Assembly (NCBI GenBank): GCA_016182415.1
Contig: JACPGR010000030.1
Span: forward strand, 1-39,369
DNA from: Candidatus Magasanikiibacteriota bacterium
Lineage (GTDB): Bacteria; Patescibacteriota; Patescibacteriia; Magasanikbacterales; UBA922
Direction of reading: 5' to 3'
Length of the DNA stretch: 39,369 nucleotides
Shown: one piece after another, positions 35,376-36,500 of the stretch
Numbering within the stretch: position 1 is the stretch's first letter
How the letters are laid out: every line of letters starts with the position of its first letter
The notes under the pieces: model-generated
The model's input: the letters and a program-made list of their open reading frames with translations, nothing else
What the model was told of the DNA's origin: nothing
The model's database searches: none
Position numbers and translations under genes: made by a program

Positions 35376-35885
35376 TCAATTATCCGTTTCGACACTCGTG
35401 TTATTCAGATTTTGAGTGGTCGTTGTTGTCAATCCTTCACCTGGAATATCCACTTCGACATTATTACTATAACTCATACACGCTTCACCAACCACTTTAC
35501 ACAATCGAAAATATGCATGACCTGCAGGTAAACCTGACCAGAGTTTTTTTCGATGTGGTTTACTGCGTTCAAACCACCAGGTACTTGGGTATGTCGGATT
35601 TGGTTCTGTGCCGTATAAAATACGCCAGCCCTCGCTAGACTCTGCAATTCTGTCTGCGACTTTCCATTCAAAATCTACCGCATTGTTTCCGACCGCTGTA
35701 GCTATTAGAACTAATTCATCTGTTTTTTGAGGATTCTCTGGGATGGTTTCCTTTGTTTGCGTTTCCAAATTTTTTGATGCCACAGTTTTATCTGAAGTAT
35801 CCTTCATTTCGTCTGTTCCACTACACCCGGCTCCGAGTAGTATGATACTCGCAAGTGATATGAAAAAAAGCTTTAAATTGTTCAT
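35376..35885 (-). CDS. Lipoprotein of unknown function
   Basis: A 169-residue protein. ATG 35885 (MNNLKLFFISLASIIL) is used because AGAGG lies seven bases before it; the longer TTG start at 35891 would break that spacing. The lipobox is LGAGC with Cys21. After a Thr/Lys-rich linker, residues about 60-155 form a beta-rich domain (LVLIATAVGNNAVDFEWKV, WRILYGTEPNPTYPSTWWFE) that resembles a fibronectin-type fold, closed by a Thr-rich tail. No family is recognised. A 252-base transposon-like element is inserted directly upstream of the ribosome-binding site, so its original promoter has been separated from it. Confidence 0.78.
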   Translation of the reverse strand: MNNLKLFFISLASIILLGAGCSGTDEMKDTSDKTVASKNLETQTKETIPENPQKTDELVLIATAVGNNAVDFEWKVADRIAESSEGWRILYGTEPNPTYPSTWWFERSKPHRKKLWSGLPAGHAYFRLCKVVGEACMSYSNNVEVDIPGEGLTTTTTQNLNNTSVETDN

Positions 35886-35898
35886 ATACAAACCTCTA

Positions 35899-36166
35899 AG
35901 AATTAGGGTTCTTCGTAAATTATTGTGGGTAAAGCTCTAACAGCTTACTATGGTGAACCACCAAATTTGTATACAAAGCCCTGTAAGGGCGATATATGTT
36001 AGCCAGGCACGTGAGTGCCTGGTAAGATATGGTACAATCATGAGTGTAACGGTACTCATTCATTTAATATACGCAATACAGGCACTTAAGTGCCTGCCTA
36101 ATATATTCCATCCCTTACGGGATTGGAATTAGGTACCCACAATAATTTACGAAGAACCAGAATTAG
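35899..36166. mobile_element. MITE with 25-base terminal inverted repeats and 8-base target duplication
   Basis: 35907-35931 (GGTTCTTCGTAAATT...) is the exact reverse complement of 36134-36158 over 25 bases. The element is 252 bases and is flanked by AGAATTAG at 35899-35906 and again at 36159-36166, a perfect 8-base target duplication. Inside are hairpins GCCAGGCAC/GTGCCTGG, CAGGCACTTAAGTGCCTG, GCCCTGTAAGGGC and ATCCCTTACGGGAT. There is no open frame for a transposase, so it would need one from elsewhere. Family not recognised. Confidence 0.9.
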
Positions 36167-36218
36167 CATATTGTGTATCATATATTAATAACGGGAATAA
36201 TACAAGTTTAGTACACTA

Positions 36219-36247: not shown

Positions 36248-36254
36248 GTATCAG

Positions 36255-36286
36255 TCAATCACTCAATCACTCAATCACTCAATCAC
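36255..36286 (+). repeat. 8-base tandem repeat (TCAATCAC)n
   Basis: TCAATCAC is repeated four times. It precedes ACGCCCACTTTTTGGGCGT, a six-pair hairpin without a following T run, in the presumed uvrA leader. Confidence 0.8.
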
Positions 36287-36362
36287 GTATATTACGCCCA
36301 CTTTTTGGGCGTGTTGTGGTATTATGGAGAAAAGACAAGGAAATTGTAAATAATGAAGGTTA

Positions 36363-36410
36363 GTGGCCTTGTAAGCCTCGTGAGCGTCGTAAGCCTTGTA
36401 AGCGTAATTT
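36363..36410 (+). repeat. One-arm word repeat, TGTAAGC
   Basis: CTTGTAAGCCTCGTGAGCG, TCGTAAGCCTTGTAAGCG: the word GTAAGC or GTGAGC occurs four times in a row upstream of the truncated uvrA copy. Confidence 0.55.
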
Positions 36411-36412
36411 AT

Positions 36413-36484
36413 ATGCAAGAAAAGATAATTATCAAAAGAGCTCGTGAACACCGCGTAAAATTCGCTACGCTCATCACGCGGTAA
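36413..36484 (+). pseudogene. Truncated, diverged duplicate of the uvrA 5' end
   Basis: ATG 36413 begins a 23-codon frame: [16 protein letters not shown], then a short unrelated tail to TAA 36482-36484. uvrA, which starts 88 bases later, begins [16 protein letters not shown]. The two share GAGCTCGTGAACAC exactly and an overall pattern over about 40 bases; after that point the first copy runs into the palindrome ACCGCGT/ACGCGGT (36450-36483). It could be a decayed duplication or a leader peptide that affects uvrA translation. Confidence 0.65.
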
Positions 36485-36500
36485 ACATCCGACTAAATAT

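Follow-up and report, generated by a model that had tools for sequence, protein, structure and literature searches.

A probable ISL3-type MITE in a patescibacterial lipoprotein leader carries an inverted pair of Acido-Lenti-1 motifs

Introduction

The window analysed here, a stretch of 39,369 nucleotides from a Candidatus Magasanikiibacteriota bacterium (assembly GCA_016182415.1, contig JACPGR010000030.1), contains a short sequence with inverted-repeat ends directly upstream of a predicted lipoprotein gene. The locus raises the questions of what this sequence is, which transposition system brought it there, what lies between its ends and what its arrival means for the gene. A sequence-only reading had proposed a recently moved miniature inverted-repeat element (MITE) whose transposase gene lies outside the window.

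Structure of the element

The element spans 252 bp (35907-36158) and ends in perfect 25-bp inverted repeats, GGTTCTTCGTAAATTATTGTGGGTA, at 35907-35931 (plus strand) and 36134-36158 (minus strand). An exact 8-bp duplication, AGAATTAG, lies on both sides (35899-35906 and 36159-36166), and these dimensions agree fully with those first read from the sequence. The outermost 35 bp on the left (35907-35941, plus strand) equal the right end of an ISL3-family insertion sequence (IS) present elsewhere in the same genome, with one mismatch to contig C54 (C54:32794-32828) and none to contig C14 (C14:3493-3527). The interior beyond these 35 bp is not IS leftover but an inverted pair of Acido-Lenti-1 motifs (Rfam RF01687), a difference from known ISL3 MITEs. 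Half 1 (35977-36022, minus strand) scores 55.8 bits against a gathering cut-off of 37 and consists of a long hairpin (36003-36022), a TTAG foot and an outer hairpin (35978-35990). Half 2 lies inverted at 36078-36124 (plus strand) and scores 33.6 bits, below gathering, or 44.6 bits with model R1. Between the halves, 36039-36064 is a remnant of inner hairpins that is partly deleted relative to the copy on C58 in the copy alignment. The predicted fold of the whole element is very stable (z about -12). While the element itself had been recognised correctly, its interior had been passed over, and this is itself a mobile-element remnant.

Insertion into the leader of the lipoprotein gene

The lipoprotein gene (169 aa, 35376-35885, minus strand, ATG at 35883-35885) has no Pfam family match; it is transcribed divergently from uvrA, a pairing conserved in several relatives. 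Between their lipoprotein and uvrA genes, these relatives have neither the 25-bp ends nor the Acido-Lenti-1 motif. The ribosome-binding site AGAGG (35893-35897, minus strand) adjoins the left duplication and aligns with AGGAG in the orthologues. Read by eye from an alignment with two close orthologous leaders (L260 and L262), the likely ancestral promoter lies on the far side of the element at 36177-36205 (minus strand), with a -35 box TTGTAT (36200-36205), a 17-nt spacer and a -10 box TATGAT (36177-36182); a consensus promoter scanner did not list this site. Orthologous leaders, also compared by eye, read TTGCNC-17-TATNCT with about 30 nt to the ATG, and ATTCTTA-AGGAG in L260 and L262. Removal of the element and one AGAATTAG from the window leaves TTGTAT-17-TATGAT followed by CTAATTCT-TAGAGG and the ATG, with the same spacing and the same -10 to ATG distance as in L260 and L262; the CTAATTCT-TAGAGG context around the left duplication is recognisable in the MITE-free orthologues. 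As an ancestral-like leader is restored in this way, the insertion falls within the 5' leader, a few bases past the point where the transcript is expected to begin. The initial description of an insertion between the gene and its regulatory region can therefore be narrowed to one between a conserved promoter and the ribosome-binding site, and the ancestral promoter is likely retained upstream, now split from that site by the element.

Other short repeats occupy the interval between the element and uvrA. The 8-mer ATCACTCA is present in four to five tandem copies (36250-36289), and a run of 9-mers (GTAAGCCTC, GTGAGCGTC and similar) at 36365-36405 has counterparts at about nine further positions in the genome; a similar run precedes uvrA in the relative G033 (L266). 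Just before uvrA, a small frame (36416-36487) that contains the palindrome ACCGCGTAAAATTCGCTACGCTCATCACGCGGT repeats the first uvrA codons, as if the start of that gene had been partly duplicated.

Related copies and a likely transposase source in the same genome

In the 1.11-Mb draft genome, the 25-mer end has 18 exact occurrences and three with a single mismatch, compared with no occurrence of a reversed-pattern control, which excludes a chance origin of the ends. A DNA search recovered about ten related copies, none with an open reading frame of note, five of which are complete (C73, which is the window, C85, C71, C60 and C79). The ends are identical in all five in the alignment, and each has its own exact 8-bp duplication, all five of them different (AGAATTAG, AAAAATAT, ATTTTTTC, ACTAATTC and AACGGATT). 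A further element has been split by assembly into two halves at contig ends (C2 right and C22), both bordered by GTTAGTTC. Copies are near-identical where they overlap and range from 171 to about 300 bp through internal deletions around the central palindrome, with the caveat that the draft is fragmented, several copies stop at contig ends and the length variants could partly reflect assembly collapse at palindromes.

An ISL3-family IS at C54:31494-32828 has the same ends as the element, with one mismatch each. Its transposase frame is open, matches PF01610, PF13542 and PF14690 (the DDE, HTH and zinc-ribbon domains of ISL3 transposases) and is the sole PF01610 match in the genome; the window itself holds no ISL3 transposase, in agreement with the sequence-only reading. 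A second, truncated IS copy with an exact GGTTC end runs off contig C14. Since this IS shares its ends with the element in the same genome, we consider the element an ISL3 MITE with a likely resident transposase source. The domain composition of the transposase (DDE_Tnp_ISL3, HTH_Tnp_ISL3 and Zn_ribbon_ISL3), 25-bp ends beginning GGYTCTTCG, 8-bp duplications and small transposase-less derivatives are all shared with known ISL3 ISs and their MITEs. The near-identical copies, the differing exact duplications, the IS with the same ends and the element-free orthologous sites together support the view of an intact, recently moved MITE.

The C54 IS is not flanked by a target duplication (ACAAATTA on the left, AGTTTTGT on the right). 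Its left flank ACAAATTA is also the right flank of a MITE half on C14 (C14:29-140), which suggests either recombination between the two elements or a chimeric assembly.

The Acido-Lenti-1 cargo and associated Y1 transposase genes

Matches to RF01687 are numerous in the window genome (51 at E-values up to 10, 11 of them over the cut-off), and many are arranged, away from any MITE, as inverted pairs with a spacing of 100-230 bp. Such pairs are found in the MITE and on C2, C85, C51, C74, C39, C12 and C9; the copies outside the MITE lack the 25-bp ISL3 ends. One of them (C12:11817-12136) was considered as an ancestral ISL3 MITE with cargo and rejected, having only a decayed right end and no left end. 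Two Y1 transposase genes (PF01797) lie within the same motif pattern: that at C80:1855-2535 sits between left and right half-sites, and that at C51:8478-9158 follows a complete pair. The dispersed pairs look like the C80 unit minus its gene, i.e. like REPINs.

Scattered inverted pairs of palindromes, together with a Y1 transposase gene that has these palindromes on its flanks, are features shared with the REPIN, REPtron and TIRtron systems of RAYT (TnpA-REP) transposases (PMC3116915, PMC3733652, PMC6006769). At the hairpin foot, where REPs have a GTAG-type tetranucleotide, the window genome reads TTAG and the planctomycete relatives L119 and L129 read GTAG. However, each cargo-type half is built from two or three hairpins (termed long, outer and inner) in place of the single 20-40 bp hairpin of a REP, and the transposases carry the signature Y---Q--HH where class 2 RAYTs have ..NP. 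A relationship to CGTC-type REPs, considered because the inner hairpins read CGTCCC..GGGACT, was rejected, as no transposase is reported beside CGTC REPs (PMC3733652).

An alignment of the two Y1 proteins of the window genome, used as query, retrieved 80 relatives from many phyla. The signature Y---Q--HH is present in 77 of 78 relatives and in both query proteins, and an inverted repeat of at least 11 nt flanks the gene at 28 of 78 loci, compared with none of 78 when the flanks were displaced. With no further input, Rfam places RF01687 52 bp after the Y1 gene in an acidobacterium (L118) and 22 bp after it in a planctomycete (L119); a second batch of 20 Y1 loci gave no match at the Rfam cut-off. 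The flanks of L117, L118, L129, L131, L136, L137, L153 and L165 are alike, with an outer hairpin, a TAGCC-hairpin and an inner hairpin, then the gene, then the mirror image. A covariance model built mainly from dispersed RF01687 matches of other genomes placed 29 of its 41 matches at the 80 loci within 150 bp of the gene (8% expected). These near-gene matches come from 15 of the 80 loci, flank both sides in 12, and are mostly on the minus strand upstream and the plus strand downstream at 46-63 bp. Across four phyla, the motif lies about 50-65 bp either side of Y1 genes in fixed opposite orientation. Most Bacteroidetes relatives lack it, so the association covers only part of this protein group.

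Any match to the motif is found in only 5 of 287 Patescibacteria, above the cut-off in the window genome alone, and because of this rarity the association was tested in Acidobacteria. Among 20 acidobacterial Y1 loci, two of which (L239 and L240) repeat L118 and L153, 19 have a match within 150 bp and 11 have matches on both sides. Across 199 acidobacterial genomes, RF01687 occurs in 47, the Y1 protein in 44 and both in 36 (odds ratio 59, P about 3e-22, without correction for relatedness). In a Korobacter-like genome, RF01687 is also found tandemly repeated, each unit measuring 136 bp (L219; G373:C10:8-325).

Distribution of the composite among relatives

The composite element was found in one of 95 related genomes (G016), which belongs to another genus of the same family. 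Its two halves lie on two contigs, are 84 and 92% identical and are both flanked by AAAAATGT. The corresponding IS in G016 (G016:C12:3887 onward) has identical ends and is about 92% identical, with an internally deleted transposase gene, and its MITE may now be stranded. As the lipoproteins of the two hosts are only 41% identical, transfer of the composite between lineages appears more likely than inheritance.

Origin and effect of the insertion

Taken together, we consider it very probable that the window element is a non-autonomous ISL3 MITE carrying a REPIN-like Acido-Lenti-1 pair and inserted in the 5' leader of the lipoprotein gene. In this account, the element comprises both ends of an ISL3 IS but not the transposase gene. 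While the 25-bp ends, the duplications and the intact frame are observed, mobilisation would proceed by the transposase of the intact ISL3 copy cutting at these ends and inserting with an 8-bp duplication. The REPIN-like unit between the ends would consist of two inverted end structures of a second transposon type, for which the genome likewise encodes a Y1/HUH transposase. The duplications and ends show that the composite has spread by ISL3 transposition, while the anatomy of the cargo family points to separate spread by single-strand HUH transposition. This account is built on sequence, from which the movement itself is deduced.

A different mover, with the Y1/HUH transposases carrying the whole element including its ends, could be argued from the genome encoding such enzymes and from the interior carrying their end structures. 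However, HUH transposition of the IS200/IS605 type produces neither a target duplication nor long, perfect inverted repeats at the termini. Both features are present in all complete copies, whose ends agree with those of an ISL3 IS, and the REPIN copies outside the MITE lack the 25-bp ends, which makes this route very improbable. Even less credible is that the inverted repeat represents a conserved cis-regulatory structure of the lipoprotein gene: it does adjoin the ribosome-binding site and fold stably, but orthologous leaders keep promoter and ribosome-binding site while lacking the repeat, and the same element recurs at unrelated sites with new duplications.

The consequence for the gene is less clear-cut. 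The sequence-only reading held that the element must now either provide the promoter or silence the gene, and we regard either outcome as possible but somewhat doubtful. Its separation of promoter from ribosome-binding site, a terminator-like hairpin on the minus strand (35990-35978) and the stability of its fold speak for such an effect. Against it, a scan found no promoter-like site inside the element, the total found being at the level of shuffled sequence, and in the predicted fold the stem of the 25-bp ends closes about 9-13 nt before the ribosome-binding site, leaving it outside. The choice is not forced, because the promoter shared with the orthologues survives upstream and can read through the element as leader. 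Given an insertion between conserved promoter and ribosome-binding site, the likely result is a transcript that keeps its promoter but has a leader extended by about 260 nt of strongly folded sequence; read-through, termination at the 35990-35978 hairpin and normal expression are all compatible with the sequence.

Acido-Lenti-1 as a probable transposon end

The cargo poses a further question, as RF01687 is listed by Rfam as an sRNA gene and was described as probably RNA by Weinberg et al. 2010 (PMC2864571). Recent genome papers still treat Acido-Lenti-1 as an ncRNA present in many copies and raise the possibility that it regulates protease genes. The element might accordingly be a plain ISL3 MITE dispersing a genuine ncRNA gene in its interior; covariance-model matches to the Rfam entry exceed its curated cut-off both in the window and across many genomes. 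However, the motif comes in inverted pairs, and it brackets Y1 genes at a fixed distance and in opposite orientation in several phyla. In 89 distinct motif copies, 274 pair cells are changed on both sides, yet only 6 of 1120 standard pairs are G-U (a count that the search model could somewhat bias), compared with 25 of 270 pairs in tRNAs from the same loci. Because the stems change almost exclusively by Watson-Crick exchange, the motif seems to be under selection as DNA, and the near absence of wobble pairs is what would be expected of a palindrome kept for its DNA. Covariation nearly free of G-U and the adjacency to Y1 genes both speak against an RNA function of RF01687, and we therefore consider a dispersed ncRNA gene improbable.

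Although catalogued as an RNA gene, RF01687 behaves here like the DNA terminus of a transposon. Di Nocera et al. (PMC3733652) reported Y1 genes, some of them acidobacterial, with REPs or terminal inverted repeats on their flanks. The signature Y---Q--HH is the defining feature of TnpA-Y1 subclass 1.2 (Quentin et al. 2018, PMC6006769), which was described as largely confined to Cyanobacteria and Bacteroidetes and in which typical terminal structures were found to be generally absent. The proteins retrieved here resemble this subclass in their signature, short core and low copy number and are candidate members of it. In contrast to the published description, a conserved terminal repeat made up of several hairpins accompanies those from Patescibacteria, Acidobacteria, Planctomycetes and Verrucomicrobia. 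In a literature search that extended to texts other than subscription papers and supplements, we found no link of RF01687 to a transposase or to REP/RAYT systems, nor of ISL3 MITEs to REPs.

We consider it likely that RF01687, rather than being an RNA gene, represents the DNA ends of a widespread Y---Q--HH Y1/HUH transposon group, in which such ends had until now been described as generally absent. In the same reading, its non-autonomous form has become the cargo of an ISL3 MITE in this patescibacterial lineage, placing one element in two independent transposition systems.

Significance

On its own the element is an ordinary ISL3 MITE, and the locus illustrates how a gene leader can receive such a MITE and its strongly folding cargo while the promoter is kept. 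It is the cargo that raises the interest, as it connects an orphan RNA family with transposases whose ends were not known and places one mobile element inside another, which carries it. If this interpretation is true, a catalogued 'non-coding RNA' family would be reclassified as transposon ends, and a group of Y1 transposases that lacks known DNA partners would gain a concrete, testable substrate.
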